Part shown: positions 14,029 through 31,800 of the stretch, piece by piece
Numbering within the stretch: position 1 is the first letter of the stretch
Layout: every line of letters begins with the position of its first letter
DNA from: Bacteroidota bacterium
GTDB lineage: Bacteria; Bacteroidota; Bacteroidia; Sphingobacteriales; Sphingobacteriaceae
Length of the DNA: 64,000 nt
Assembly (NCBI GenBank): GCA_013286235.1
Contig: JABDGE010000002.1
Span: forward strand, 1 to 64,000
Direction of reading: 5' to 3'
The notes under the pieces: model-generated
Database searches by the model: none
Told to the model about the DNA's origin: nothing
The model's input: the letters and a program-made list of their open reading frames with translations, nothing else
Translations under genes and position numbers: made by a program

Positions 14029-15225
14029 ATGAAGAAAAAATATGCCTTTTCGTTGCTACTGGCTGTAACAACCATGTGCGCGTGCCGCAAGCCTTATAAC
14101 CCACCGGCGATGGCAGCGCCGCAAAGCATTCTTGTTGTGGAAGGAGCGATCACGGGCTCCGATTCAACGTTCATCACCCTTAGCCGCGCCGTAAATCTTG
14201 CTGCACTAAATACAAACAACCCCGAATTGCATGCCTCGGTTGCCGTGGAGAGCAATCAAAGCATAAGTTATCCCCTAACCGAGCTTGGAAACGGTATTTA
14301 TGCCTGCGGGCCGCTAAACCTGGATAATACGCATCAATACCGTTTAACAATCACTACCGCCGGCGGCCAGCTCTATGTATCAGATTATGTGAGCACGCTA
14401 AACGCCCCGCCAATTGACAGCGTTACGTGGGATACGAAAGGCACATTGCAGGGCGCCGGCTTAAACGTATATGTAAACACGCATGACCCCACAAATACTG
14501 TTAAATATTTCAGATGGGAGTACCAGGAAACATGGCTTTTTACCGCTCAATTTGGTTCGGACTACTATTCGAACGGTGATACGGTACTTGTCCGCAACCT
14601 GCAGACACAAAACATTACCAATTGCTGGGACAGCGATACATCCAGCACCATCTCGTTAGGCAGCACCGCCAAACTGTCTAAAGCGGTTATCAGCCGGCAA
14701 CTGCTTACCTCGGTGCCTTCAACGTCTGAAAAGGTCTCGACTGAATACAGTGTACTGGTAAAACAATATGCATTGACAGCCGACGCTTACATTTTTTATC
14801 AAAACATGAAAACTAACACCGAGCAGCTTGGTAGTATATTCGATGCCCAGCCCTCTCAAATTAACGGCAATTTGCACTGCGTGACCAATCCTTCCCAAGC
14901 CGTTATTGGCTATGTATCCATAGGCGCTGTTACTACGCAAAGAATATTTGTAAGGAACCTGCCGGGATGGCAAACCACTCCTGACCCACCGGGGTGTGTG
15001 CTGGCATTTGATGGTGAAGCTTGCTGCACTTATATTAGTAAGTATGGAAACCAGGTAAATGAGTACATCAATTACCTTATTGGGGGCGATACGAACCCGC
15101 TAATCCCGATCAATGCAATAGGTCCGGTGAACCTGCCCCCCCTTGGCTACACAGCTACAACGAGAGCATGCGCGGATTGTACTTTGCGAGGAACGAATGT
15201 AGAGCCAGGTTTTTGGCATTACTGA
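14029..15225 (+). CDS. DUF4249-type outer membrane lipoprotein (copy 1 of tandem pair)
   Basis: Lipobox MCACRKPYNPP; QSILVVEGAITGSDSTFITLSR; nearly collinear with 15513-16736. Confidence 0.85.
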   Translation: MKKKYAFSLLLAVTTMCACRKPYNPPAMAAPQSILVVEGAITGSDSTFITLSRAVNLAALNTNNPELHASVAVESNQSISYPLTELGNGIYACGPLNLDNTHQYRLTITTAGGQLYVSDYVSTLNAPPIDSVTWDTKGTLQGAGLNVYVNTHDPTNTVKYFRWEYQETWLFTAQFGSDYYSNGDTVLVRNLQTQNITNCWDSDTSSTISLGSTAKLSKAVISRQLLTSVPSTSEKVSTEYSVLVKQYALTADAYIFYQNMKTNTEQLGSIFDAQPSQINGNLHCVTNPSQAVIGYVSIGAVTTQRIFVRNLPGWQTTPDPPGCVLAFDGEACCTYISKYGNQVNEYINYLIGGDTNPLIPINAIGPVNLPPLGYTATTRACADCTLRGTNVEPGFWHY

Positions 15226-15377: not shown

Positions 15378-15530
15378 CGGTGTTGACAGTTACATCGACT
15401 TGAAGCAAAAGGCTCCCGAAAAACGTATTTTTTGTATTACGGGTAGCCTTTTTTATCCTGATGATCGTATATTTAAATCCGAACCAATTCTTCAACCGAA
15501 TTATACCTTGCTATGAAGAAAAAATATGCC
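15378..15530. repeat. Direct-repeat copy of the 13897-14046 promoter/leader region
   Basis: ggtgttgacagttacatcgacttgaagcaaaaggct...gatgatcgtatatttaaatccgaaccaattcttc.acccgaattataccttgctatgaagaaaaaatatgcc near-identical to upstream of copy 1. Confidence 0.92.
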
Positions 15531-16736
15531 TTTTGGTGGCTGCTGGCTGTCATGACAGTGTGTGCATGCCGCAAGCCTTATAATCCACCGGCGATCGCGT
15601 CGCCGCAAAGCATTCTTGTTGTGGAAGGCGTGATCACCGGCTCCGATTCAACGTTCATCACCCTGAGCCGCACCGTAAATCTTGCAGCACTAAATACAAA
15701 CAACCCCGAATTGCATGCCTCGGTTGCCGTGGAGAGCAATCAACAGGTAACCTATCCCCTAACAGAGCATGGAAACGGGGTTTATGCCTGCGGGCCGCTA
15801 AACCTGGATAATACCCATCAATGCCGCTTGACGATTACCACAGCCAACGGTCAGGTCTTTGCGTCCGACTATGTGAGTATACTGAATGCCCCGCCTATTG
15901 ACAGCGTTACCTGGGATACCAAAGGCACGCTGGAAAGCGGCCCCGGCATGAATGTATATGTAAACACGCATGATCCGACAAACACTGTAAAATATTATAG
16001 ATGGGAGTTTGACGAAACCTGGATTTTTGAATCGCAATTTGAGTCTAACTACTACTCTAACGGAGATACTGTGCTTGTACGCAACCAACAGACACAGAAC
16101 ATTTCCAGGTGCTGGGACAGCGATACGTCCAGCACCATCCTGTTAGGAAGCACTGCCAAACTGGCTAAAGCGGTCATCAATAAGCAACTGCTTACCTCGG
16201 TGGTGTCATCGTCAGAAAAAGTTTCTAATGAATACAGTGTACTGGTGAAACAGTATGCATTGACAGCTGATGCCTACACTTTTTATCAAAACATGAAAGA
16301 AAACTCAGAGGATCTGGGCAGTATATTCGATCCCCTGCCCTCTCAAATTAACGGCAACTTGCACTGTGTTACCAATCCATCCCAGGCGGTTATCGGCTAT
16401 GTATCGGTAGGCGCTGTTACCACGCAAAGGATATTTATCAGCAGTCGTGTGTTGCCCGGATGGCAGGTTACTTATGACCCGCCGGGATGTGTGCTGGCAT
16501 TTAACCCCAAACAACCCTGTTGCTATTATAATTTTGTTAATAACAACGGTTCCGTCACAAACCAGGTAAATGCTTATATCAACTACCTGATAGGGCACGA
16601 TCAGGAACCGCTTATCCCGATCGATGCAATAGGTCCGGTGAACCTGCCGCCTCTTGGATATACTGCTACGACCAGGGCCTGCGCGGATTGTACTTTGCGC
16701 GGGACAAATGTGCAGCCAAGCTTTTGGCAGTACTAA
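15513..16736 (+). CDS. DUF4249-type outer membrane lipoprotein (copy 2 of tandem pair)
   Basis: MKKKYAFWWLLAVMTVCACRKPYNPPAIASPQSILVVEG; paralog of 14029-15225. Confidence 0.85.
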   Translation: MKKKYAFWWLLAVMTVCACRKPYNPPAIASPQSILVVEGVITGSDSTFITLSRTVNLAALNTNNPELHASVAVESNQQVTYPLTEHGNGVYACGPLNLDNTHQCRLTITTANGQVFASDYVSILNAPPIDSVTWDTKGTLESGPGMNVYVNTHDPTNTVKYYRWEFDETWIFESQFESNYYSNGDTVLVRNQQTQNISRCWDSDTSSTILLGSTAKLAKAVINKQLLTSVVSSSEKVSNEYSVLVKQYALTADAYTFYQNMKENSEDLGSIFDPLPSQINGNLHCVTNPSQAVIGYVSVGAVTTQRIFISSRVLPGWQVTYDPPGCVLAFNPKQPCCYYNFVNNNGSVTNQVNAYINYLIGHDQEPLIPIDAIGPVNLPPLGYTATTRACADCTLRGTNVQPSFWQY

Positions 16737-17070: not shown

Positions 17071-18264
17071 ATGACAGTATTAAGCGACAGGATCAATAAC
17101 CTTTCGGAATCGGCAACCATAAAAATGGCCAAACTTGGCCGCGAACTGGCTGCCAAAGGCGTCGACATGATCAGCCTGAGTTTTGGCGAACCCGATTTTC
17201 ATACACCCGATCACATCAAGGAAGCTGCCAAACAGGCGATGGATAAAAATTTCACTTACTATACACCTGTTTCCGGTTATCCTGAACTCCGTAAAGCCGT
17301 TGCTGTCAAATTAAAAACCGAAAACAACCTGGATTATGATTTCAGCCAGGTCGTAGTTTCAACCGGCGCTAAGCAAGCTATCGCGAATGCTGTGCTTTGC
17401 CTGGTAAACCCCGGCGAGGAAGTGATCATTCCTACGCCCTACTGGGTATCCTACTCGGAAGTGGTTAAACTTGCAGAAGGTGTAAGCGTTTTTATCGACG
17501 CGCCTGTTAAGCAGGACTTTAAGATCACACCTCAACAGCTGGAAGCGGCCATTACGCCAAAAACCAAGCTGTTTATGTTCTCCTCGCCATGCAACCCGAC
17601 CGGCAGCGTTTACAGCAAGGCAGAACTGGAGGGTTTGGCTAAAGTGTTCGAAAAACATCCAAATGTTTATATCCTGTCCGACGAAATATATGAGCACATC
17701 AACTTCGTGGACAAGCATGAATCAATTGCCCAGTTCGATAGTATCAAAGACCGCGTGATCATTATCAACGGCTTTTCAAAAGCCTTTGCAATGACCGGCT
17801 GGCGTATCGGATATACCGCGTCGAACAAAGAAATTGCTGCCGCGTGTGACAAAATGCAGGGACAGATCACTTCCGGCACTTGTTCAATTACACAAAAGGC
17901 CGGTGTTGCCGCACTGGAAGGTGGTTTGGATACCGTTTTGCAGATGCGTGCCGAATTTAAGAAACGCCGCGACCTGGTGTATGGTTTATTAAAAGAAATT
18001 CCCGGTGTAAAAGTTAACCTGCCCGAAGGCGCTTTTTACTTTTTCCCGGATGTAACCTCGTTTTTTGGCAAGAGTTATAATGGCGTAACTGTAAACGATG
18101 CTGATGAGTTGGCCATTTATTTGCTGGAGGAGGGCCACGTTGCAACCGTCGGCGGCGATTCGTTCGGCGACAGGAAGTCGATTCGCATTTCTTATGCGGC
18201 CGCTGAGGATAAACTGATTGAAGCCTGCAAGAGGATTGGGGAGGCGTTGGGTAAATTGGTATAG
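17071..18264 (+). CDS. Pyridoxal-phosphate-dependent aspartate aminotransferase (class I/II)
   Basis: MISLSFGEPDFHTPDHIKEAAKQAM, SPCNPTGSVYSK, NGFSKAFAMTGWRIGY. Confidence 0.95.
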   Translation: MTVLSDRINNLSESATIKMAKLGRELAAKGVDMISLSFGEPDFHTPDHIKEAAKQAMDKNFTYYTPVSGYPELRKAVAVKLKTENNLDYDFSQVVVSTGAKQAIANAVLCLVNPGEEVIIPTPYWVSYSEVVKLAEGVSVFIDAPVKQDFKITPQQLEAAITPKTKLFMFSSPCNPTGSVYSKAELEGLAKVFEKHPNVYILSDEIYEHINFVDKHESIAQFDSIKDRVIIINGFSKAFAMTGWRIGYTASNKEIAAACDKMQGQITSGTCSITQKAGVAALEGGLDTVLQMRAEFKKRRDLVYGLLKEIPGVKVNLPEGAFYFFPDVTSFFGKSYNGVTVNDADELAIYLLEEGHVATVGGDSFGDRKSIRISYAAAEDKLIEACKRIGEALGKLV

Positions 18265-18364
18265 AGGGATTGTCCAGCGATTAGAGGTGGGAGATTAGTT
18301 AAGCAATGTAAAAATTGAGTGCATCCTGCCCCGGGTCCGGGCGCGTTATAAAAAACAACTAAAT

Positions 18365-18395
18365 AAAAAATGCCGCATAAAGCGGCATTTTTTAT
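18365..18395. terminator. Rho-independent terminator between convergent genes
   Basis: TGCCGC-ATAAA-GCGGCA stem with A-tract and T-tract on either side. Confidence 0.85.
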
Positions 18396-18414
18396 TTAAA
18401 TTATTCCTTCAAGC

Positions 18415-18804
18415 TTATTTACTTTCATCTGTACTGGTCCAGCCGTCACTCCAGCCATTGCTGGTGCCCCCCTTGTTTTCCTGTACCAGCTTGTCAAATT
18501 GGGTAACCTCAGCAGCGGTCAATATACTTTCAATCTTTTTAATTGTAGCAGTACGAAGTGGTCGCACTGCAACTATCATTTTATTCGTGTTGCCGTTCTC
18601 TTCCTTTTTTATTTTATCGAATTTTTCGGCCGACTCCTGGTAAACAGCAGTGATGTATCCTGTTTGGTAATCGGTGAGTTTCAAGTCTTTTTGTAACAAT
18701 CTTGCTTTTGCAGCCGGATCGGCAGTAGCAGGATTTGAAGTTTGGCTATAGCCTGCTGTTGCAAACGCAGTAAGCAAACAGCATATTAACAGAACTCTTT
18801 TCAT
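18415..18804 (-). CDS. Secreted hypothetical protein
   Basis: Signal peptide MKRVLLICCLLTAFATAGYSQ; helical repeat LLQKDLKLTDYQTGYITAVYQESAEKFDKI. Confidence 0.7.
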   Translation of the reverse strand: MKRVLLICCLLTAFATAGYSQTSNPATADPAAKARLLQKDLKLTDYQTGYITAVYQESAEKFDKIKKEENGNTNKMIVAVRPLRTATIKKIESILTAAEVTQFDKLVQENKGGTSNGWSDGWTSTDESK

Positions 18805-18930
18805 AATATTTTAATTAAATTGATTGTCTGATACAAAGGTAGTTAATTTATGTATTTAACCGAACTGAATAATAAAAACACAAAAAGATATCGGTTTTAT
18901 TGTAAACAACACCGGTCTCTAAACATTGTT

Positions 18931-21177
18931 TTAATTTGTTCCCGTCATCATCGGCATACTCATCGGGGCTTTTGGTTTTTGTTTATAGGTTAATTTGGCC
19001 AGGTGAATAATCTCAGGCTGCTGGTTACCTTCAGTAATATGCAGAAACCGGTTCGGCGCAATGTTTTTGAAGTATTGAACAGTTCCGCTGCCCGCCCACT
19101 TTATTTCGATCTCGTCAATTGATTTTGCCTGGCCGATGCCTATTTCCTGCCGCAAGGGCGAAGACCCGAAACTGCCTCCCGAATTCACATCCTTGTAAAC
19201 ACTCCGTTGTACGCCATTTTCGGTAAACGTAACTTTTATCCGGCTGCCTATCGCAGCTTTGTTCGCTTTTACCCCTTCCAGCTTTAAACCTATCCAATTG
19301 TTATTTCCCTGCCCCGGGTTCACGTACAGCGAACTGGTATAGGAATCCCCCCTATATGCGCCGCCCATTTCAATAAATATGTCCTGGATACCGGTATTCC
19401 TTATGTCGGCAAAGGCCACGCCATGTCCTTTTTGCAAATTACCGGTACGGGAAGAGGTGGTTACATCGGCAAATCGTTTTCCGTCGATGTTCTTAAATAG
19501 TTTGTTGGGCACCAGCGACTTGAAATCGGGATTGCCCGTACCAAAATACATATCAGGCCAGCCATCGTTATCAATGTCCCCAAAATTGGCCCCCATACTA
19601 TAAACTACCTTATCCAGCCCAGCTTCTTTGGTTACGTTGGTAAAAGTTCCATCACGGTTATTGCGGTAAAGGAATATATTTCCTGCGTTCGGCACCGGTC
19701 GTTTCATTCCTTCGGCGCCGGCGTAATACGCCAGTGACCTGCCGAAGTTATAATCCGCTACCATGATATCCGGCCACCCGTCGTTGTTATAATCAAAAAA
19801 CCAGGTAGTGAATGTTCTTTCCCTGTTATTGTCGATTCCCGATTTGGCGGTAACATCTTCAAAATCAGGCGTAGCGCCGGGTTTAGCTTTGTTTTTTAAT
19901 AGGTACTTTTTGCCGCTCATGGTGGATATAAAGATATCCGGCCAGCCGTCGTTATTATAGTCAGCGGAAGCTACCCCCTTTACAAAGTCAGTAATATCAC
20001 AATGCGCCTCCACGGCAACATTGGTGAACGTGCCATCATGATTGTTCATGTACAACATGCAAGTGTGTGTACCGCCGGTATCGTGCCCCCCGGAGTCCTC
20101 TGTTCCGACAAATACATCCAACCATCCGTCGTTATTAAAATCGGCCCAAACCGCTGTTTGGGTAGGTTGAAAAAAAAGCAGGCCGCTTGGGATGGTTACG
20201 TCGGTAAAGGTGCCATCTCCATTGTTGCGTAACAGGGAACTGGGTTGGTTTCCGAAGCCATCCTGGTTCCATGCCCCTCGTAACACGAAGATATCAAGGT
20301 TGCCATCGTTATTATAGTCCACCTGCTGAATGTTTAAACCCCCGGTTATCCCATTCAGGCCACTTTGTTCCGTACGGTCGGTGAAGGTGCCGTCCTTGTT
20401 GTTTTGAAAATAATGCATGGGATCATCAAGGCCCCATCCCGACGTCACAATATCGAGGTAACCGTCATTGTTAAAATCGTCGACAATTACGCCGCCTGCC
20501 CTGCCATTAATGTCGAGGCCCAGGCCTGCAGCCATGTCGGTAAATGGTTTTACCTTATACGCGGTATCGGAATCCAAACCCGGTATCAGGAACTGCTGCG
20601 GGACACCTTTCGGATATTGCCCCAGGGTCATAAATGCGATGTTTAGGAGCCATTTTGACTCCAGGTCTTCAGGATGGGCCGTCAGTATGCCTTCATACAC
20701 TTCGATCGCTTTTTTTGACCCTGTTTGAATTTTATGCACACCCCCATCTTTTATCGGGAATATGCAGGAAGAACCATTGTGATTGAGCATGCAATTGTTT
20801 CGTTCGCCCAAACGCATGTAGGCGATAGCCACGTCGGGCATGGTCCGCTCCATTGACATATAGTCGACCCGCGTGAGTAAATCCTTGTAAGTTGCTACGG
20901 ACTCTTCCTCCTTACCTACTTTAAGGGACAAGGCTGCTTTCGCATTAAGGAGACCCGGATCATGCTCATTGTCTTTTATTTTAAGCAGCGAATCGACATG
21001 TGCCAGCTTCACCTCGGGGTTAAATCCGTTGCCCAGGCTGTTATTTCTTTTATTCATGTCGCTAAGTAACGCTATCATTGCTTCGTGGGATGACTGATGG
21101 TACTCGGCCACTAAGCCACACGTGAGCAGCAAAATAATTGCGCCTCCAATTATTAAGTATTGTCTTTTAAATTTCAT
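18931..21177 (-). CDS. CRTAC1-like protein with FG-GAP/VCBS repeats and C-terminal ASPIC/UnbV domain
   Basis: Repeated DFNNDGYLDIVTSGWG, DYNNDGNLDIFVLRG, DYNNDGWPDIFIS motifs; C-terminal NNWIGLKLEGVKANKAAIGSRIKV; start placed at MKFKRQYL. Confidence 0.88.
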   Translation of the reverse strand: MKFKRQYLIIGGAIILLLTCGLVAEYHQSSHEAMIALLSDMNKRNNSLGNGFNPEVKLAHVDSLLKIKDNEHDPGLLNAKAALSLKVGKEEESVATYKDLLTRVDYMSMERTMPDVAIAYMRLGERNNCMLNHNGSSCIFPIKDGGVHKIQTGSKKAIEVYEGILTAHPEDLESKWLLNIAFMTLGQYPKGVPQQFLIPGLDSDTAYKVKPFTDMAAGLGLDINGRAGGVIVDDFNNDGYLDIVTSGWGLDDPMHYFQNNKDGTFTDRTEQSGLNGITGGLNIQQVDYNNDGNLDIFVLRGAWNQDGFGNQPSSLLRNNGDGTFTDVTIPSGLLFFQPTQTAVWADFNNDGWLDVFVGTEDSGGHDTGGTHTCMLYMNNHDGTFTNVAVEAHCDITDFVKGVASADYNNDGWPDIFISTMSGKKYLLKNKAKPGATPDFEDVTAKSGIDNNRERTFTTWFFDYNNDGWPDIMVADYNFGRSLAYYAGAEGMKRPVPNAGNIFLYRNNRDGTFTNVTKEAGLDKVVYSMGANFGDIDNDGWPDMYFGTGNPDFKSLVPNKLFKNIDGKRFADVTTSSRTGNLQKGHGVAFADIRNTGIQDIFIEMGGAYRGDSYTSSLYVNPGQGNNNWIGLKLEGVKANKAAIGSRIKVTFTENGVQRSVYKDVNSGGSFGSSPLRQEIGIGQAKSIDEIEIKWAGSGTVQYFKNIAPNRFLHITEGNQQPEIIHLAKLTYKQKPKAPMSMPMMTGTN

Positions 21178-21422
21178 TGGTATAAGTTTTAATTGTATTC
21201 CGGCAGTGTCACCACTTAAGTACCAGCCCAAATAGCCGACCTATTCCGGGCGCCACGCAGCGTCGCCGTTAATAAATTAGTCAATTGTAAATTTTCGCCA
21301 TACGCTGCAAAACAACATGCCGGGTAAGCACGGTTAAGTGATTGCGAAACACGATCACCAACAGGATGATCCAACCCGCGTTCAGAAAGGCATTTGTTGA
21401 ACCTCGTCCTCGAAAAATTAAA

Positions 21423-21980
21423 TCAGGAAAGGCTATTTGATGCGTCCGGTGGTTGCGACGGACTGGGGATGGCGTATTTAATAACGCCGGTGACGGAACG
21501 ACTAATGGCCAGTTTGAAAATAGCAGCCGGTGTAACGAACGTGTACTGCAATGCCTGATAATTGTAAATGCCTATATTGTTAGTTTTTGTAAACGGAACG
21601 TGCTCCTTTTTATTAAACGGAACATCTTTAAGACTGCGGGCATCTATAATGTTTTGCTGACACAGCTTCGTCGTCTTGTAATTAGGTATGCACATCAGGA
21701 AAATAGTATCCCGGGTCATTTTCAGTTTTACATAATTGTAGCTGCCGTTTTCCAATTGCAACTCCCCGCTGATAGATAGATAACCTTTCCAATCCTGGAT
21801 GCCCGGCATTTTTTCCGGAAGTTTTACCTCTACCAGGTCGTCCAGTTTATATTTATCCTTGCTGATCTGCGCTTCAAAAAACCGGTCGGACTTGAAAACA
21901 CAATAGGCGTACGCCACAAAGTTTCCGTACAGGCTAAACAAATGGAGCAGCAGCAGCGATATGGCGATTGTTCTTTTCAC
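21423..21980 (-). CDS. Small membrane-anchored hypothetical protein, paralog of 27750-28271
   Basis: N-terminal TM; shares YK(L/A)xDLVE(V/I)K(L/I)P, YNYVKLKxxxDT, DVPxNKK with the other paralog. Confidence 0.75.
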   Translation of the reverse strand: MKRTIAISLLLLHLFSLYGNFVAYAYCVFKSDRFFEAQISKDKYKLDDLVEVKLPEKMPGIQDWKGYLSISGELQLENGSYNYVKLKMTRDTIFLMCIPNYKTTKLCQQNIIDARSLKDVPFNKKEHVPFTKTNNIGIYNYQALQYTFVTPAAIFKLAISRSVTGVIKYAIPSPSQPPDASNSLS

Positions 21981-22014
21981 TATTTGGGACTCGGCATTTA
22001 CTTAATATAATCGG

Positions 22015-22042
22015 TACTGCCCGGTTTCTTTCCCGGGCAGTA
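22015..22042. terminator. 10-bp hairpin immediately 3' of the CMD cluster's last gene
   Basis: TACTGCCCGG-tttctttc-CCGGGCAGTA; no strong U-tract. Confidence 0.5.
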
Positions 22043-22044
22043 TA

Positions 22045-22623
22045 TCACGATGTTTGCAATTCTTTTGTCAGCGTAACATTGATTGATGATGGTTTATACC
22101 CTTCACGGACGCGTTGTGCGCCCATCTTATCATAAAATTCTTCATTATCAGGCTGCCAGGTATCCAATCCATCTACATAGCGGTTGTACATACAGAATGC
22201 AGCGGCAATAAGCACGGTATCGTGGATCTCAATATCTGTCGCGCCTTCCTTGCGTGCATCCTCGACTTCTTCGGCAGTTACATTCTTGCCGCCTAACTGC
22301 ACGCTGGCGGCAATCCTTAGCAGCGCCCTGAGTTTTTCGCTGATCGGGGCTGATTCCGGATCGGCCAATACCTGCTTTACGAGCGAGAGATCGCTATTTA
22401 ACTGATGTTTGGCGATGGCGCTGTGCGAGCGAGTGCAAAAATTACAGGTATTGAGGTTGGATACATAGGAAGCGATTAGCTCGCGGTCACCGGCACTTAA
22501 TGTGGGGTGCGGGTTATGTAATAGCACCTGGGCCAGGTTGCAAAGCGGCGCGGCGGTTTCGGGGCGGAACACAAACAGGCTCCTGATGCCCGGGTATTCG
22601 GTAGGAAGTTCAATATGTGGCAT
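22045..22623 (-). CDS. Carboxymuconolactone decarboxylase/AhpD-like (peroxidase-related) protein 1
   Basis: NTCNFCTRSHSAIAKH active-site motif; EIHDTVLIAAAFCMYNRYVDGL. Confidence 0.88.
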   Translation of the reverse strand: MPHIELPTEYPGIRSLFVFRPETAAPLCNLAQVLLHNPHPTLSAGDRELIASYVSNLNTCNFCTRSHSAIAKHQLNSDLSLVKQVLADPESAPISEKLRALLRIAASVQLGGKNVTAEEVEDARKEGATDIEIHDTVLIAAAFCMYNRYVDGLDTWQPDNEEFYDKMGAQRVREGYKPSSINVTLTKELQTS

Positions 22624-22665
22624 AATCTTGTTATTTAATGTGTTTTTAATGGTCAATAATTATTT

Positions 22666-23214
22666 TTACTTGTAAACGCTTGATTGATAGCCATCCAAGG
22701 CGCGTTGAGGCGCCCGGTCGACATAAAATTGGCGATCGGCAGGCGCCCACGTCGCCAAACCGTCTACATAACGGTTGAACATGCAAAACGCGGCGGCTAT
22801 CAAAACCGTGTCGTGGATCTCGGTATCGGTTGCGCCGTTTGCTCTCGCATGTTCTACCTGTTCGGGTGTAACGTTCTTCCCTCCTTTCTGAACACTGCCG
22901 GCAATGCTCAACAATGCCTTCATCTTTTCGGAAATAGGCGAAGCGGCGAAATTTTCTTTTATGTCGTCAATCTGCCTCACGTTACATTCCAAATAATGGC
23001 CCGCGAGGGCGCCATGTACGTTCTGACAAAAAAAGCAGTCGTTTAAATACGATACATAAGTGGCTATCAACTCCCGCTCTCCCCTGCTTAAGCTATTATC
23101 GTCGCTGCGTAAAAGGACTTCGGCTAAGGCATTTAACGGCGCCTCTGTTTCGGGGCGGTAGGCCATCAGCCCTCTTATTCCTGGTAATTCGTTATTTAGT
23201 TCAATATGTGCCAT
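22666..23214 (-). CDS. Carboxymuconolactone decarboxylase/AhpD-like protein 2
   Basis: NDCFFCQNVHGALAGH; EIHDTVLIAAAFCMFNRYVDGLATW. Confidence 0.88.
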   Translation of the reverse strand: MAHIELNNELPGIRGLMAYRPETEAPLNALAEVLLRSDDNSLSRGERELIATYVSYLNDCFFCQNVHGALAGHYLECNVRQIDDIKENFAASPISEKMKALLSIAGSVQKGGKNVTPEQVEHARANGATDTEIHDTVLIAAAFCMFNRYVDGLATWAPADRQFYVDRAPQRALDGYQSSVYK

Positions 23215-24478
23215 CGGTTTCCATTTGTTTTGTGTGCTGCGTGGCCGGTTGTATGTTTTTTATCAGCACCACGGCCAGCAGCCCTATTATAAATATCAGT
23301 GAGAAAATGAACAGCGCGTTGCTGTATCCGCCCAATGCTGTTACCAGCACACCAACCGTCAATACGGCCAGACCGGTAAACACCCGCCCGATGTTGAAGC
23401 AGAATCCAGTAGCCGAAGCTCGGATGCTTGTGTGAAAAAGCAAGGGGATATACAGTGATAAAACACCCTGGCTCACACCAAAAAATAGCGCAATAACTGC
23501 AATCTCGGGGTAAATGATCACAGAGAATGAACTGTTCGTTTTAAACAGCACGAAGGAGAGGGCGATGCACACGACAAAACTGGCGACAAGTGATCTCCTC
23601 AATCCCACAAGGTTAACCAGCCAGCCCGAAAAAAAACCACCAGTCAGACCACCCATCCCTAAAAACATCATGCTTATGCCCCCTTCTTTATGTGCATCAG
23701 TGGCTAACAGGCTTTGTATCCAGGTAGGCGTCCATGAAAATATGGCCCACATGCCAATAAGCATGGTCCCGAATATGACGGAGCCCGTGGCAAGCGCCGC
23801 AAGGTTTTCGGAGTGAAACAATCGGCTTTCGACCGTGGGCAAACTGGACCTGTCAGACCGGTCATTCAGCCACAGCTCCGATTCAGTTATGACCCAGTAG
23901 CCCGCAACGGCGATTGCTATGGGGATGATCCCTATCATAAATCCCTCACGCCATGAGGATACCAGGTAACTGATCATGCCGGCTGAAAAGATACCAACCG
24001 GGACAGAAATTGACAGTATCCCCGTAACGATGGCCCTGTTTTTTTCGGGCCAAACCTCGCTTATCAGCGTGAACGATACCACCAGCAGGCCACCTGTGCC
24101 GACGCCGCTCAGGAAGCGGCATACTACTACGCACCACCAGCTATTCATAAACCCGGTGAGCAATGTAAATATCCCGAAACAGGCAATAGACAATAAAAGG
24201 GATGCTTTCCGGCCGGTTTTATCGCTGATGACCCCCCAAAGGAAACCACCGGCCGCCCACCCGAAAATAAAGATGGAATTGATGTAGCCACTTATGTCAT
24301 TGAGTTGGGCATCGCTTTGCCCTCCCCGTAATTCCTTCACCACGACCGGCAGGTAAACCGACATGAGCGTGGATACCACCCCACCGAACATGTTGCCTGC
24401 GAAACAGACGATAAATAAGGCCATCAGGTTAGTTGTGGTTGCCTTATCCTGTGTATTGATGCTTAATGTGCTTTTCAT
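23201..24478 (-). CDS. MFS transporter
   Basis: About 12 hydrophobic segments; GGFLWGVISDKTGRKASLLLS motif; 14-nt overlap with the downstream CMD gene. Confidence 0.92.
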   Translation of the reverse strand: MKSTLSINTQDKATTTNLMALFIVCFAGNMFGGVVSTLMSVYLPVVVKELRGGQSDAQLNDISGYINSIFIFGWAAGGFLWGVISDKTGRKASLLLSIACFGIFTLLTGFMNSWWCVVVCRFLSGVGTGGLLVVSFTLISEVWPEKNRAIVTGILSISVPVGIFSAGMISYLVSSWREGFMIGIIPIAIAVAGYWVITESELWLNDRSDRSSLPTVESRLFHSENLAALATGSVIFGTMLIGMWAIFSWTPTWIQSLLATDAHKEGGISMMFLGMGGLTGGFFSGWLVNLVGLRRSLVASFVVCIALSFVLFKTNSSFSVIIYPEIAVIALFFGVSQGVLSLYIPLLFHTSIRASATGFCFNIGRVFTGLAVLTVGVLVTALGGYSNALFIFSLIFIIGLLAVVLIKNIQPATQHTKQMETDGTY

Positions 24479-24491
24479 GTGCTCAGTACCA

Positions 24492-25052
24492 TTATTTTTT
24501 TAGATGATCATAGCCTTGCGGCAGGCGTTGATAGCCATGGCTTACAATTCGTTCGGCCAATACAACATAGTACCCGGGCTCGGCGGGTAAGGCGGTGGCC
24601 AGGCCGTCGACGTACCGGTTGTACAGGCAAAACAGGGCCGCTATCAGCACCGTGTCGTGGATCTCAATGTCGCTGGCGCCTGCGTTTTTTGCACGGGTAA
24701 TAACTTCGGCCGATACGGTTTTGGCATCCTTCCCGGTTAGTTTGGCAATGGTGAGTAAGGCTTTCATCTTTTCACTTACTGGCGCCGTCTCAATATCATG
24801 TTTAACAGCTGCTGCCGTTTCACTATCACCCATCAAAAGGTCCACTGCGGCTGTATGGGCCGTAGTGCAGAATTTGCAGCCGTTACCATGTGACACGACC
24901 GTCGCAAGGAGCTCGCGTTCGCCTTCGGTGAGCGTTGATGGCCCGCGTAACAATACCTGGGTTAAATCCCGTATAGGCTGCGCCGAATCCTTCCGGTATT
25001 CGAGCAAACCGGTTATACCCGGCAAATGGCCTTCAAGTGGAATGTATGGCAT
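24492..25052 (-). CDS. Carboxymuconolactone decarboxylase/AhpD-like protein 3
   Basis: GNGCKFCTTAHTAAVD; EIHDTVLIAALFCLYNRYVDGLAT. Confidence 0.88.
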   Translation of the reverse strand: MPYIPLEGHLPGITGLLEYRKDSAQPIRDLTQVLLRGPSTLTEGERELLATVVSHGNGCKFCTTAHTAAVDLLMGDSETAAAVKHDIETAPVSEKMKALLTIAKLTGKDAKTVSAEVITRAKNAGASDIEIHDTVLIAALFCLYNRYVDGLATALPAEPGYYVVLAERIVSHGYQRLPQGYDHLKK

Positions 25053-25076
25053 ATGTTGTGACTAAATAGTAAAAGC

Positions 25077-26147
25077 TTAAGCTGTTTCTTGCTGTTCGTG
25101 AATAAGTTGTGCCTCGGCCAATTTGGTGCCGTCAACGCGCGCCTTAATTTTGGCAAATGCGGTTTCGCGCGTGGTTGAAACATCGTCGCAAAACGGCGAA
25201 AAGCCGCAGTCGTCCGTTGTGCCCAATTGGTCTACCGGAATGTAATGCGCTGCTTCCAGCACCCGGTCGCGCACTTCTTCTTTGGTTTCCACTTTTGGGT
25301 TAAGTACGTCGATCACGCCGATAAAGGCTTTTTGATTCGGTTTAAGGTATTGCTTTATCGTTTTTAAAACTTTTACGTGATCTGGTTCGCTCGCTAACTG
25401 CAGGTAAAAGCTGCCCACATTTAAATTGAAAAGCTGGGGTAAAAAGTCGGCATAATCAACATCAGCGCTATGGGTTGAGTCGTGGTCGCCGCCAGGGCAT
25501 ACATGCACCCCTAATTTCTCCCGGTCTGCTGCGCCAAAGCGATTAAAAACCTGGTTATTAACATCAATAAAATGTTTCAAAACGCCGCCCGAAGGATCAA
25601 GCTTCAGTGATAACCTGCCTTCGGTAAAATCCATTTGCACCTTGTAAGCGCCCTGTTCCAGGCATTGCCGGATGTCTTTTTCACACTCGTTCAACAAGTC
25701 GGTCATAAATTCAGCCTGGCTGTAGCCTTCTATGCCGCCTTGCGGATAGATCAAACTCAGCGCCGATGCGGAGATCACCGCTTGCTTAACCGGGAGCTTT
25801 GTTTGCTGTTGCGCTGCTTTCAAATACTTCACCGCGAAGTTACCGTACCTGAACGGGCCGCTGGTTATCAGGGGCAATTGCCGGGAATGGCCATCTTCGA
25901 AATTGATCGTCATACCTTCGGGGGACAAGTTGGTCAACCCTTCCAGCGGGTAGGTGGCAAAGCTCGACTTGGTTTGCTCGCCGTCTGTTATCACCGGGGA
26001 TCCTGTTTGTTCAAACGCGCTTATAGTTTCACTGATGGCCTTTTCATAAAGGCTTCTTAAATCGGCTCCGTTGGCCGGTGCCGTAATGGCGGCTATTAGT
26101 TCCGGGGTGCGTGGGATGCTGCCGATGGGTTCTGTAGCTAATTTCAT
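25077..26147 (-). CDS. Stand-alone cobalamin-independent methionine synthase (MetE C-terminal domain)-like protein
   Basis: EPIGSIPRTPELIAA, LGVHVCPGGDHDSTHS (HxC) and DDCGFSPF (Cys) resembling MetE zinc ligands; only 356 aa, no N-terminal MetE half. Confidence 0.85.
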   Translation of the reverse strand: MKLATEPIGSIPRTPELIAAITAPANGADLRSLYEKAISETISAFEQTGSPVITDGEQTKSSFATYPLEGLTNLSPEGMTINFEDGHSRQLPLITSGPFRYGNFAVKYLKAAQQQTKLPVKQAVISASALSLIYPQGGIEGYSQAEFMTDLLNECEKDIRQCLEQGAYKVQMDFTEGRLSLKLDPSGGVLKHFIDVNNQVFNRFGAADREKLGVHVCPGGDHDSTHSADVDYADFLPQLFNLNVGSFYLQLASEPDHVKVLKTIKQYLKPNQKAFIGVIDVLNPKVETKEEVRDRVLEAAHYIPVDQLGTTDDCGFSPFCDDVSTTRETAFAKIKARVDGTKLAEAQLIHEQQETA

Positions 26148-26165
26148 AAGATTTGTACTTTAGTG

Positions 26166-27389
26166 TTAGTTTATAATTTCTGTTAAATATGGTCTTTGGG
26201 TATAGTGTTGCTGATACCTGGCTGTATTTGGGTGGAAAGTGCTCCAGGAATGCCAGAACTCCTGGTACGATTGTATAGTATTCAGCCGCTGCCCCCTCAG
26301 GGTCCCGCCAACACAAAGGCCATCCATGTTCCACGTTGAATGGGTGTTTTCGTCGATGATGGTATCGTTCAGCCCCTCTTCAAAATAGAGCACCATGCCG
26401 TTCAACTGCCTGTTGTACACATGAAAGGATGCACTGTCTTTCTCAAGAGCAAGCACCACCGGCATATCTGCCACTGCATCATCAATTACACCTGCCTTTG
26501 CTATCTCGTTCCAGTCGTATGCTTTTGAGGCACGGTTGCGGATTACGCCGATTACCCAGGATTTACGTTTCCAGGACGCGGAATCTCTTTTTTCGAGGCT
26601 GCTTTTCACGGTCCCGTCGTCATAATCTGCAAGACCGGCATATTGCTTATTGAAGGTGGTATCCGGTTGCATCACAAAGGAGTTGGGATATTCCCGAAGC
26701 CAGGCCTGCAGGGTAAGCTGCTTACTTGGAAATTCTTTCAGGGCCGATCCTTTCAATTTGCCGGCTATTACTTTCCCTGTAGCCTGTTGCCACCAGCTTC
26801 CGGTTGCGGCGTCTTCAAACATGGCGTTGAAGTGATCCATGCCTACCAGGCGGAAAGATTCCTTCCTTCCGTTTACAATAGGGCTGTAAACGCGGCCCGT
26901 TCTGCACACAGTACAATACGTAACCATTACCGGCATGTTGCCGATGGTATCCATTACCTGGTGGTGGTAGCCGATAATCCGGATTGGATAAGCCTTCGCC
27001 TGCCCGTTGATCGCTACGCCGATCACCAGTTCATTTTTATCAGTGGTATCGGTATTCGAAGCCGCAAATCGCTTCTCTTTAGGCTGATGAAACATCTTAT
27101 CCGCCTCAAAACGATAGTTGAAAAAGAAGAAAATAACAGCATATAAGATTAAAGGTAAACTGCAGGATATCTTCATCCATGTTTTCCCGTTTTTAAAAAC
27201 ATGCAGCACGGGGACAATGATCAATGCCAGTCCCAGCACTCTTATCCATACGATATTACCGCTTATCCAGTAAGCGGCTGTGATCGTGTTCCGATACTGG
27301 CTGCCGGGGAACGGCATGATAAAATACACGCGAAGTATTTCAACTGCAAATAAAACTAGCAGGCCCGAGATCAATAGAAGTCTTTTCAT
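26166..27389 (-). CDS. DUF3179 domain-containing membrane protein
   Basis: MVTYCTVCRTGRVYSPIVNGRKESFRLVGMDHFNAMFEDAATGSWWQQATGKVIAG; N-terminal TM helices. Confidence 0.85.
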   Translation of the reverse strand: MKRLLLISGLLVLFAVEILRVYFIMPFPGSQYRNTITAAYWISGNIVWIRVLGLALIIVPVLHVFKNGKTWMKISCSLPLILYAVIFFFFNYRFEADKMFHQPKEKRFAASNTDTTDKNELVIGVAINGQAKAYPIRIIGYHHQVMDTIGNMPVMVTYCTVCRTGRVYSPIVNGRKESFRLVGMDHFNAMFEDAATGSWWQQATGKVIAGKLKGSALKEFPSKQLTLQAWLREYPNSFVMQPDTTFNKQYAGLADYDDGTVKSSLEKRDSASWKRKSWVIGVIRNRASKAYDWNEIAKAGVIDDAVADMPVVLALEKDSASFHVYNRQLNGMVLYFEEGLNDTIIDENTHSTWNMDGLCVGGTLRGQRLNTIQSYQEFWHSWSTFHPNTARYQQHYTQRPYLTEIIN

Positions 27390-27749
27390 AAAGATTAATT
27401 AACGCGTAAATGATTTTTGGTAATTGGCTTAATATTTCAATCTGCCGTAGGCAAATGAAATTTAGTCTGCAGTCTTCCGGGGCGGTTCGTCAGCAATGCT
27501 TACTTATTCATTGTATTAAATCAATCCGCCTGGCTGTAAAACAAGGATTTGGATTTGAAAGGCATACGGTCGATTAAGCCGGATAAGTAATTGCTGGATG
27601 GGTGGGGCTGTTCTGATCGTAATTGCGCTTAACATTTGATTAAAGCTTTAACCCAATAACAGAGTTTGCCTTTAACAAATCGTTGATTCTTCGTTCCTAC
27701 GACTGTAGTAAAGCCCTGGCCTGAACCAGGAAAACATTTAAGAAAGGGT

Positions 27750-28271
27750 TTACGCGATTTCGGGAGGTTGGCCCGGTACGCCGGGCAAAGAATCGGTAGT
27801 AGCTGATACAGCATATCTACCGGCTGGCTTCTTGATAGATGCAGGGATCCTTGCTAATTGATTTAACAAGGTATAATTTAATTCATTGTCGTTGAATTGT
27901 TTTGCAGTTGTATTATGCGATTTCTTATTTACCGGCACATCGGCAATTTGTTTATCAAGCACATTTTTAGATTGCACCAGCCGGGTTTTCTCGTTATTGG
28001 GAATGACATCTACATAGAGGGTGTCATTGGCAATTTTAAGCTTTACATAGTTGTAGCAATTGCCATTCACCTTAACCTGCCCGCTGATGGGCTGATAGTC
28101 GCCCGAACTCTCACTGTAGTAAAGTTGTGCGGGAATTTTTATTTCGACCAGATCGGAAGCTTTATAAAGGTTTTGATCGATATGCTCGGTCATTGCGGCA
28201 TCCGTCTTGTTCATGAAGTATTGAAACAACAAAATGTATCCCCCCTGGTAAAACAGGAGGCATACAAGCAT
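27750..28271 (-). CDS. Small membrane-anchored hypothetical protein, paralog of 21423-21980
   Basis: N-terminal hydrophobic segment; YKASDLVEIKIPAQ, YNYVKLKIANDTLYVDVIPN, ADVPVNKKSH. Confidence 0.75.
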   Translation of the reverse strand: MLVCLLFYQGGYILLFQYFMNKTDAAMTEHIDQNLYKASDLVEIKIPAQLYYSESSGDYQPISGQVKVNGNCYNYVKLKIANDTLYVDVIPNNEKTRLVQSKNVLDKQIADVPVNKKSHNTTAKQFNDNELNYTLLNQLARIPASIKKPAGRYAVSATTDSLPGVPGQPPEIA

Positions 28272-28432
28272 TGCTATTGCGAATAACTTTTTCAGCTTAA
28301 GAGGTTTTATTGGTAACCGGAAATAAAAGTATTTTAAATAAATGAATTTTGCAAATTATGTTTTTTGAAAGAGCCCGGGGCAAGTCGGATTGAAAAACCG
28401 GTGCATTTTAAAAATAGGTTCTTTTTTAGCTA

Positions 28433-28448
28433 TCAAACGATCGTTTGA
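28433..28448. promoter_or_regulatory. Perfect 16-bp palindrome, TetR-type operator candidate
   Basis: TCAAACGATCGTTTGA, self-complementary, about 160 bp upstream of the minus-strand gene start at 28271. Confidence 0.55.
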
Positions 28449-28524
28449 GATAGGGTAATACAACATTGAAAAGACTGATTGGCTGATAATTGTAAGATTT
28501 TCGAACGGCTATCTGAAACTTTTT

Positions 28525-28554
28525 TTTGAGGCGTTGGCTGATTTGCTATATTTG
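28525..28554 (+). promoter_or_regulatory. Bacteroidota-type promoter for tRNA-Ser
   Basis: TTTG - 18 nt - TATATTTG, about 50 nt upstream of the tRNA. Confidence 0.7.
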
Positions 28555-28604
28555 CAGTCCCGAAAAAAAGGGGTTTTATTGGATTACGGCCGCAAGGCAA
28601 AAAT

Positions 28605-28691
28605 GGTGAGGTGCCTGAGAGGCCGAAAGGATCAGTTTGCTAAACTGACGTACGGGAAACTGTACCGAGGGTTCGAATCCCTCCCTCACCG
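28605..28691 (+). tRNA. tRNA-Ser (anticodon GCT)
   Basis: GGTGAGG...CCTCACC acceptor stem, long variable arm, TTTGCTAA anticodon loop, GGTTCGAATCC T-loop. Confidence 0.95.
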
Positions 28692-28706
28692 CAAACCCGG
28701 TTAATG

Positions 28707-28731
28707 TCCCTGCCAAACGGCAGGGCATTTT
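28707..28731 (+). terminator. Terminator downstream of tRNA-Ser
   Basis: CCCTGCC-AAAC-GGCAGGG stem then catttttgttt. Confidence 0.75.
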
Positions 28732-28881
28732 TGTTTAGTGGCGTTTGCCAAACTTTGTTTGAGCAAAAAGCGGCTAAACAAAAACGTGAGTGAACGCAGC
28801 GAACGGCAATGAACGGGTTTAGCACCCCCTTCAAGGGATCAGCGAGCGCAGCGAGCTAATCCGTTAGAATTTGATCCTCTA

Positions 28882-31800
28882 TTACCTGATTAGCGCTACA
28901 AAACCGGATAATGGAGGCGTGCCATTATTAAGGTTTATAATGTAATAGTAGGTGCCCGTAGGACACCGTTTACCCTTTAGGGTTCCGTCCCAGGCGTTAT
29001 AATACCCTTTTGAGCTATATACCTGCCCTCCATACCGATCGAATATAAGCACCACGCAGTTCTGGTACTCTATTAAATTTTTAAGGTCCCACTTGTCATT
29101 AATTCCATCGCCATTTGGCGTAAAAGTATTGGGGATAATTATTCCATTTAACACCGTTACCGTTACTGAATCTGCAGCTATACAACCCGCTGCTGTTTGT
29201 ACAGTTATGGTGTATAGTGTGGTCGATGAAGGGCTGGCATGGGGGTCTAAAATCTTATTATTATCTAAACCTGTTGTCGGGCTCCAAGTTATATCAGCGA
29301 TATTTCCTGATGCTGTTGCTGTTGCTGTCAATGCCACACTACTACCCTGTTCAATGGTTTTATTTACTCCTCCGTTAACAACCGGCAACGGAAAAATATT
29401 CATAGTAATGCTGTTGCTGGCCATGTTTGCGGGTGTGGCGCACGCAACAGTACTCGTCATCACACAACTAACCACATCACCATTGGCAAGCGAACTGCTG
29501 CTGAATGTTGGGCTGTTTGTTCCGGCATCGTTGCCATTCAACAGCCATTGGTAAACTGGCGAGCTGCCGCCATTGGTTGGTGTTGCTGTGAAAGTTACCG
29601 GTGTACTAGCGCAAACGTTATTTACGGAAGCTGATATCACTAATGAAGCTGTGACGATCGGGTCGACCACCCCGGTTACCGATACAGTTTGGCTGGTAGC
29701 ACCCGGCGATGAAAGCGTCACGTTAGCTGTTGTCGTACCATCGGGCAATGTAGGCGCTGACCGCACGTAAACCACGGTATTGCTTACTGTACCCGAGCTC
29801 TGGGAGATGGTAACGCTACTACCGTACCCGCTCCCTGCCGCAAGCGATACCTCAAAACCTGCCGGCGCCGTTGCTGCAATATTACCCGTTAATCCACTGC
29901 CCGAAACCGTAAACTGCTGTACATTCGGGCTTGCTGAGGCCGTACCTGCACAGGCAGAAATAGTGCCGGTTGCGGTTGATGCTGTGATGGTCGGTACCGG
30001 GGTTGGGTTTACGGTGATAGTAAAAATAACCGACATGCCATTGCAATCCGATCCATTTGTAACAAAATTGCCGAATGAATAGGGGTTAGAGCCCACTACA
30101 GTACTTGCGGAAACCGTGTTGGTGGTCGTATTGATCGTTGACATGCTATTTGTACCCCTTGTCACTACGTAAACACTTTTGCCATCCCGGCTTATGCAAA
30201 TCCCGTAGGGCAAATTTGCTACAGGAATAGTGGAAATAATAGTATTTGAGGCAGTATTGATCACGGAAACCGTATTACTATTTAAGTCTGCTACGTATAC
30301 ATATTTTCCATCCGGGGTTGAACAGATACCATAGGGAGATTCGCCAGCGCCAACATTGGCAATAACATTGTTCGTAGCAGTATTTATTACAGCGACACTT
30401 TCAGCATCGTGAATTGCTACATAGGCCTTGCTGCCGTCCGGGCTAAAACATATGCCGAATGGATGAGTGCCAACTGCAATCGTTGCCGATACCGTATTGG
30501 TTGCGGTCTGGATAACAGAAACAGTAGTGGAATAACTATTGGCTACATACACCAAGGCGCCATCAGGGCTAACGGAAATGCCCAATGGTTCTGACCCTAC
30601 AGCGACGGTTGAAATCACTGAATTCGTCAGGGTATTTATAACCGAAATTGTGTTGTCGCCGTAATTTGAAATATATGCGCGGGTGCCATCAGGGCTAACC
30701 GCCGCCCCACTGGGAGTCGACCCAACCGAGACGGTTGCAATCACGGTATTGTCTGCGGTATTGATAACTGAAACGCTTGCGGAAGACTGATTGGTAATGT
30801 ATACCCGGCTCCCATCGGGACTGGCGGCAACGCCGAATGGAGATAAACCAACGTTTATAGTTGACCCGACGGCATTTGTCGCCACATTGACGACTGAAAC
30901 TGTGCCGTCGCCGGAATTTGGAACATAAGCAAATCCGCCCCCTGTTGGTGTAACCGTGATTGTAGCTTCAACCGGGCTGCTCCCCACATTTACAGCCGTA
31001 AACGAAGCAATACTCCCGGTTCCGCTAGCCGCCAAACCAATACCTGGCGTATCATTAACCCAGGTAAATGTGTTGGCCGTACCCGTAAAATTGACGGCTG
31101 CTGTAGCTACCCCGTTATTAACAGTCTGATTAAAAACCGTATTTACTGTTGGCAACGCATTTACCGTTCCGGTTACAGCTACGGTTTGACTACTTGCACC
31201 AGCGGATGTTAGCATTACATTACCGGATATACTGCCGGTAGGTGTGCCTGCCGCCGACCGCACATAAACCACTACATTGCTTACCGTGCCACCTGTTTGG
31301 GAGAGTGTTACAGTGTTGCTATACCCGCTGCCCGCCGCAAGCGATACCTCAAATCCTGCCGGGGCAGTTGCTGTAATACTCCCCGTTAAATTACTCCCCG
31401 AAACCATAAACTGCTGAATTTGTGGGCTTGCCGATGCCGTGCCTGCGCATGCAGAAATACTGCCGGTAACTACTGATGCTGTGATAGTTGGTGACGATAC
31501 ACTGCTTGGATTTACGGTAATGGTATAGGTAACCAGTTCCGTGCAATTCATCCCGCCAGTAAAAAAACTGCCGAATGAATATGGAGTAGAACCAACCGGA
31601 ATAGTGGCAATTATAGCATTTGTTGATGCATTTACTACTGATACATCATTAGAACCGCTGTTTGAAACATATATTTGAGTGCCGTCGGGCCGTACGGATA
31701 CTCCCCAGGGACCCGAGCCAACGGGAATGGTTTTTATCACCGTATTAGTTGCCGTACTAATTACCGAAACACTATTTGAGCCCAGGTTTGCTATATACAC

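Follow-up and report, generated by a model that had tools for sequence, protein, structure and literature searches.

An apparently undescribed, conserved set of sulfur-based redox enzyme and transporter genes in Mucilaginibacter and some of its relatives

Introduction

What could a tightly packed bacterial gene block be doing when it combines three different AhpD-like (CMD) proteins, a major facilitator (MFS) transporter, a MetE-like enzyme and a DUF3179 protein between two related membrane proteins, and is this combination conserved? The question was raised by a 64,000-nucleotide stretch of a Bacteroidota contig, called the window throughout this text. A preliminary description of it had proposed a pathway for the uptake and catabolism or detoxification of a methylated or reactive (thio)organic compound. 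Mucilaginibacter is a genus of soil bacteria; together with some relatives it apparently carries a conserved, so far undescribed set of sulfur-based redox enzyme and transporter genes, of which the block in the window is one version.

Results

Organization of the gene block

All genes of the block are on the minus strand. The rightmost, MEM2 (27750..28295), encodes a small protein with one N-terminal helix; a search of the genome to which the window belongs placed it at 27756-28295, and its start is probably a CTG near 28295. It is followed by the genes for the DUF3179 protein (26166..27389; PF11376, 7.8e-61), which has N-terminal helices and a CTVC (CxxC) motif, and for the MetE-like protein of the core-MetE type (25077..26147). 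Next come CMDc (24492..25052; motif CKFCTTAH; PF02627, 6.7e-12), the MFS transporter (23201..24478; PF07690, MFS_1, 1.3e-33), CMDb (22666..23214; CFFCQNVH; PF02627, 6.8e-15) and CMDa (22045..22623; CNFCTRSH; PF02627, 5.3e-14). The CMDa reading frame is open to a TTG at 22656, the ATG at 22623 being the more likely start. The reading frames and coordinates of the run from 27389 to 22045 and the three distinct CMD motifs were all as first described.

The gaps from DUF3179 through the MetE-like gene and CMDc to the MFS gene measure 18, 24 and 13 bp, the MFS and CMDb genes share the 14 nt noticed earlier (23201-23214), and about 40 bp separate CMDb from CMDa. Because of this tight spacing, the genes from DUF3179 to CMDa are likely to form a single transcript, as judged from the sequence. 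The 10-bp RNA hairpin reported past the last gene (22015..22042, minus strand) is real (MFE -22.2 kcal/mol, fold z -4.7). It is not a clean terminator, since it has no T-run and the MEM1 gene (21423..21980, minus strand) comes after it. Further left, a CRTAC1-type FG-GAP/UnbV_ASPIC protein (18931..21231, minus strand; PF13517 and PF07593) and a small secreted protein, recognized from its sequence and the gene order (18415..18804, minus strand), probably extend the unit to 18415. These two genes follow each other in the same order in L078, and a CRTAC1-type gene comes after the cassette in the window, L078, L082 and L035.

A tRNA-Ser (GCT) gene lies immediately to the right of the cluster (28605-28692, plus strand) and was the sole match in an Rfam search of 18000-29500. 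A genomic island was considered and set aside: no integrase was seen nearby, only the adjoining tRNA-Ser, and the GC content was unremarkable. The Bacteroidota-type promoter pattern matched 5 times in the window against 3.3 expected, with no match between MEM2 and DUF3179. Elsewhere in the window, lipoprotein-like genes are duplicated in tandem (14029-15225 and 15513-16736, plus strand), their DNA being about 80-90% alike over long stretches.

The flanking and accessory proteins

The two flanking membrane proteins had been called paralogs. They do belong to one family: both could be aligned with 19 relatives, and the family profile, which contains both sequences, matched MEM1 at E 9e-77 and MEM2 at E 1.6e-64. 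The alignment and a low-confidence AF2 model give MEM1 one N-terminal helix, a small beta domain and a conserved PP near the C-terminus; a PDB search with this model returned no match. The genome assembly holds three MEM copies, two of which flank this block.

The DUF3179 family has been listed with a UxxC/T motif among selenoproteins (PMC9312934). For the MFS transporter, the best NCBIfam match was TIGR00895 (aromatic acid/H+ symport), at 151.6 bits far under the cut-off of 418.55. The identification of the CRTAC proteins as true UnbV was rejected as weak, with 22-33 bits to UnbV_L110 and a single exception of 145 bits in L013; the window protein is only distantly similar to UnbV.

A conserved core with variable additions

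Scanning 84,980 species genomes for the MetE-like gene yielded 23 loci, nearly all from Mucilaginibacter or unnamed Bacteroidetes MAGs. The MetE-like, CMDc, MFS, CMDb and CMDa genes are collinear in the window, L014, L029, L030 and L035. Collinearity is partial in L031, where the contig ends inside CMDc, and in L024, where CMDc and MFS are followed by other CMDs. In L016, CMDd adjoins the MetE-like gene, and in L015 a CMDc fragment, probably a remnant, stands immediately downstream of it. As DUF3179 also accompanies the cassette in five cases (window, L035, L079, L081, L096), the linkage of CMD, MetE-like and DUF3179 genes holds, and its recurrence in independent species indicates that the arrangement in the window is not due to chance.

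When the MFS gene was used as the query, it was found in 42 of 150 Mucilaginibacter genomes (E <= 1e-100). The loci examined carry arrays, or portions of arrays, of the form MEM-CMDc-(TonB receptor)-MFS-CMDb-CMDa/d-CMDe-MEM-CRTAC, mostly without the MetE-like gene. The core is thus formed by the CMDs, the MFS transporter and MEM, in the conserved order MEM-CMDc-(TonB receptor)-MFS-CMDb-CMDa/d/e, and the remainder is variable. Beyond Mucilaginibacter, this core was found again in another genus of the same family (L097), in two other families (L095 and L096) and on a plasmid of Spirosoma oryzicola (L106).

The MetE-like gene is joined to the cassette in only about 8 of 24 loci and is solo elsewhere. 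Since most cassettes are without it and most of its copies stand alone, it must be regarded as accessory. The MFS cassette is present in 4 of the 12 Mucilaginibacter genomes with a MetE-like gene, about the same as in the genus overall (42/150), so that an enrichment at genus level was discarded. Other variable additions are SusC/SusD, an esterase, DUF3179 and a PAP2/haloperoxidase-like protein. SusC/SusD genes are absent from the window block and present in L029, L030, L031, L035 and L075; in L029, L030 and L031 the MetE-like gene is immediately preceded by SusC, SusD and the esterase, which in L035 are accompanied by DUF3179. A TonB receptor gene is inserted between CMDc and MFS in L079, L081, L083-L085 and L097, and PAP2/haloperoxidase-like proteins are encoded near the MetE-like gene in L014, L018, L035, L087 and L088. 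The largest version (L035) reads MEM, CMDd, SusC, SusD, DUF3179, esterase, MetE-like, CMDc, MFS, CMDb, CMDa, CRTAC, PAP2 protein, CMDe, MEM, CRTAC.

Two side observations were made among these loci. In L018, L021 and L016, the MetE-like gene is followed by a conserved set encoding RidA-like, D-serine dehydratase-like and M19 dipeptidase proteins. In relatives, a single internal stop is recorded in some of the MFS or MetE-like matches (L011, L044, L050, L069-L071); these copies may be decaying, or the alignments may simply run on beyond the stop codon.

The AhpD-like proteins

The three CMDs of the window all carry the Cys-x-x-Cys-x3-His active-site motif and all pass the curated TIGR01926 cut-off of 81.8 bits, if narrowly (83.1, 83.6 and 84.5 bits). 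Cassettes hold two to five such paralogs, which in a tree of 88 sequences resolve largely as five positional clades, CMDa to CMDe, the Streptomyces proteins forming one clade. The motif is retained in nearly all Bacteroidota copies. In Streptomyces, Thr replaces the first Cys in all 13 copies read, two of which have a Cys one residue earlier; because of this replacement, the Streptomyces proteins may not have the same chemistry as those of the cassette. The subfamily is largely cassette-specific, most copies in the six genomes checked being part of a cassette (4 of 4 in G101). At a second locus of the window genome (L128), another CMDc gene overlaps a DUF3179 gene. The CMD encoded beside the MetE-like gene in L098 and L099 was not counted as an orthologue, since it belongs to a different subfamily (24-30 bits).

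The MetE-like protein

As first reported, the N-terminal MetE half is missing: within the 356 residues, only PF01717 (Meth_synt_2, 1.1e-11) was found. The family is a tight clade with at least 47% identity. Plasmid relatives at 47-61% come from Streptomyces, Trichlorobacter and Pseudoalteromonas, and identity then drops to about 24-25% for MesD-type enzymes and plasmid "methionine synthase" matches. The window protein scores far below every curated core-MetE family, NF006589 (PRK09121, MesD) giving 50.5 bits against a cut-off of 392. Its AF2 model (pLDDT 83.8) is closest in fold to MesD (3rpd, TM 0.75).

Among 38 members, the residues equivalent to the homocysteine-binding S433, E484 and D599 of E. 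coli are invariant or nearly so (S10 and D173 in 38/38; E57 in 36, Asp in two). The zinc-ligand-like motifs noticed earlier, HxC and Cys, are present in the window protein (H215, C217, C314) and well kept in the family (38/38, 36/38 and 36/38). The fourth ligand position had been missed: instead of Glu, the window protein has Gln, as do 32 members in all, with Glu in four and Ala in two. The invariant residues S10, D173, H215, D221, D223, H226, D229 and E254 include a signature private to the clade, DxDxxHSxD...E. This signature is retained in two Streptomyces members (L103, L104) in which both Cys ligands are replaced, by Asp and Ala, a loss that possibly reflects a change of metal or function. 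Members joined to a cassette do not separate from solo ones in the tree.

Related genes on enediyne plasmids

A plasmid search with CMDb returned 47 records, of which 45 were from Streptomyces, one from Nonomuraea and one from Spirosoma; the same search with UnbU returned 49. UnbU was also present on 44 of the 45 Streptomyces CMD records, or 13 of 14 after strains were collapsed. Among Streptomyces plasmids, the CMDs are nearly restricted to those with an enediyne cluster. The overlap was evaluated by a hypergeometric test, uncorrected for relatedness, against at least 261 Streptomyces plasmid records; in Streptomyces, the comparison covered plasmids only. In L108, L110, L111 and L112, the CMD genes are within an enediyne cluster or next to it; elsewhere they are farther from it. 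In L113 (NBC_01237), a MetE-like gene, an MFS gene and a CMD gene adjoin the enediyne chromoprotein gene of a C-1027-like cluster, and UnbU accompanies the MetE-like gene in 11 of the 13 Streptomyces records compared. The Streptomyces MFS is not orthologous to that of the window, and a plasmid shared with an enediyne cluster is no proof of function. In L098, L099 and L110, a FAD/NAD(P)-binding and a PEP-binding protein are repeatedly encoded as a pair beside the CMD genes of enediyne plasmids.

Of 150 Mucilaginibacter genomes, 5 have UnbU/UnbV pairs; in one case (L013), the pair is a neighbour of MEM and the MetE-like gene. UnbU was not found in the window genome (65% complete), and the block has no PKS-sized reading frame. 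Searches of open-access papers for enediyne together with CMD, UnbV or CRTAC1 gave nothing on the cassette. In L123-L126, also from Mucilaginibacter, the UnbU-UnbV pair has a halogenase-like FAD protein, a radical SAM protein and a TPR-CRTAC protein nearby, possibly an undescribed cluster.

Discussion

Our leading reading, offered tentatively, is that cells use the cassette as an accessory means of dealing with a small molecule that is reactive and thiol-active and that is most likely a natural product or peroxide from competitors; the cassette may shield cells from such a compound or aid its uptake. The multiplied AhpD-like proteins, the CxxC protein DUF3179 and the transporters point to thiol-based redox handling of a compound, for which there is a precedent: ahpD by itself makes cells almost fully resistant to allicin, a thiol toxin (PMC7119367). 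The preserved homocysteine site of the MetE-like protein also counts in favour of thiol handling. In such a system, the TonB receptor and MFS transporter would move the compound, in either direction, the two-Cys CMDs would reduce or quench it through their CxxC...H thiols, and DUF3179 would assist at the membrane. Where the MetE-like enzyme is present, a metal-activated thiol, probably homocysteine, could accept an alkyl or methyl group. The related proteins on enediyne-producing Streptomyces plasmids would have a similar protective or tailoring role, and their location there makes reactive natural products a leading, if unproven, candidate. A bolder version, to which we attach little probability, supposes an undescribed thiol-based protection against enediyne-type or similar electrophilic antibiotics common to Actinomycetota producers and their Bacteroidota neighbours, with paralogous AhpD-like proteins and a new clade of MetE-like enzymes of altered metal site quenching the reactive compound.

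Of the pathway first proposed, the detoxification half fits better than the catabolic one, because ring-cleavage, oxygenase and CoA-ligase genes are absent. The TonB receptor, SusC/SusD and esterase of some versions nevertheless suggest nutrient uptake, and for this reason we retain a PUL-like catabolic role as a rather unlikely possibility. In that case, SusC/SusD or the TonB receptor would import an esterified, perhaps methoxylated compound, the esterase would cleave it, and an MFS protein resembling aromatic-acid symporters would carry it inward, leaving demethylation to the MetE-like enzyme and further processing to the CMDs. However, the window block has no adjoining SusC/D, esterase or TonB receptor genes, the CMDs are AhpD-like (TIGR01926), and a single decarboxylase would not be expected in three to five paralogous copies. 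Less probable still is a natural-product tailoring or export cluster, with a secreted metabolite as the target of modification by haloperoxidase-like, CRTAC1/UnbV and CMD proteins. The PAP2/haloperoxidase-like genes, the UnbU and UnbV homologs of L013 and the enediyne plasmids are consistent with it, but scaffold genes such as PKS or NRPS were not seen in the Bacteroidota cassettes examined, UnbU is rare in Mucilaginibacter and the window CRTAC protein resembles UnbV only distantly.

For the MetE-like protein itself, a role as an alternative, MesD-like and folate-independent methionine synthase, whose redox partner would be an AhpD-like CMD in the way that MesX serves MesD, is likewise doubtful. 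The fold, the homocysteine site and the His and Cys ligands argue for it, and CMD-family genes adjoin it in two phyla, with members of more than one CMD subfamily among them. Yet a CMD gene is missing beside most MetE-like genes, Gln takes the place of the Glu ligand, and both Cys ligands are lost in the two Streptomyces members. In addition, MetH and/or MetE was found in every carrier genome tested, which rules out a role as sole methionine synthase. The kept homocysteine residues argue against an epoxyalkane:CoM transferase.

If the thiol-handling reading is right, the cassette represents an unrecognized Bacteroidota defence or uptake system tied to antibiotic producers. For DUF3179, the MEM family and a MetE-like clade whose sole annotation so far is "cobalamin-independent methionine synthase II", it would provide roles that can be tested, and it would draw attention to enediyne-plasmid accessory genes without a described role in the open-access papers searched.

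Comparison with known systems

The MetE-like protein shares with the MesD/MesX folate-independent methionine synthase (Price et al. 2021, PMC7857596) a single-domain core MetE, the same homocysteine-binding residues and the nearest solved fold, but differs by its low identity and NF006589 score, its mostly Gln ligand and its private DxDxxHSxD; in addition, a DUF1852 gene, which would encode MesX, was not noticed in the loci read. The cassette CMDs have the fold and the Cys-x-x-Cys-x3-His of TIGR01926 peroxidase-related enzymes (e.g. PDB 2prr); in contrast to these, they form a subfamily of their own, which has expanded into five positional paralogs. Some versions resemble Bacteroidota PUL loci in having SusC/SusD and an esterase, whereas the cassette block has no glycan-degrading enzymes and the window version no SusC/D. 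With the C-1027-type enediyne clusters of Streptomyces, the cassette has in common the CMD subfamily, CRTAC1/UnbV, an MFS protein and, in L113, a nearby MetE-like gene. Those clusters encode a PKSE, UnbU and tailoring enzymes, while no PKS was seen in the Bacteroidota cassettes, and the Streptomyces CMDs are without the first Cys of CxxC. Finally, as in the allicin-resistance islands of Pseudomonas (PMC7119367), an AhpD-like protein is central to a multi-gene redox-defence locus; the islands combine one ahpD with dsbA, trx, oye and kefFC, whereas the cassette combines its several AhpD-like paralogs with MFS, DUF3179 and a TonB receptor.
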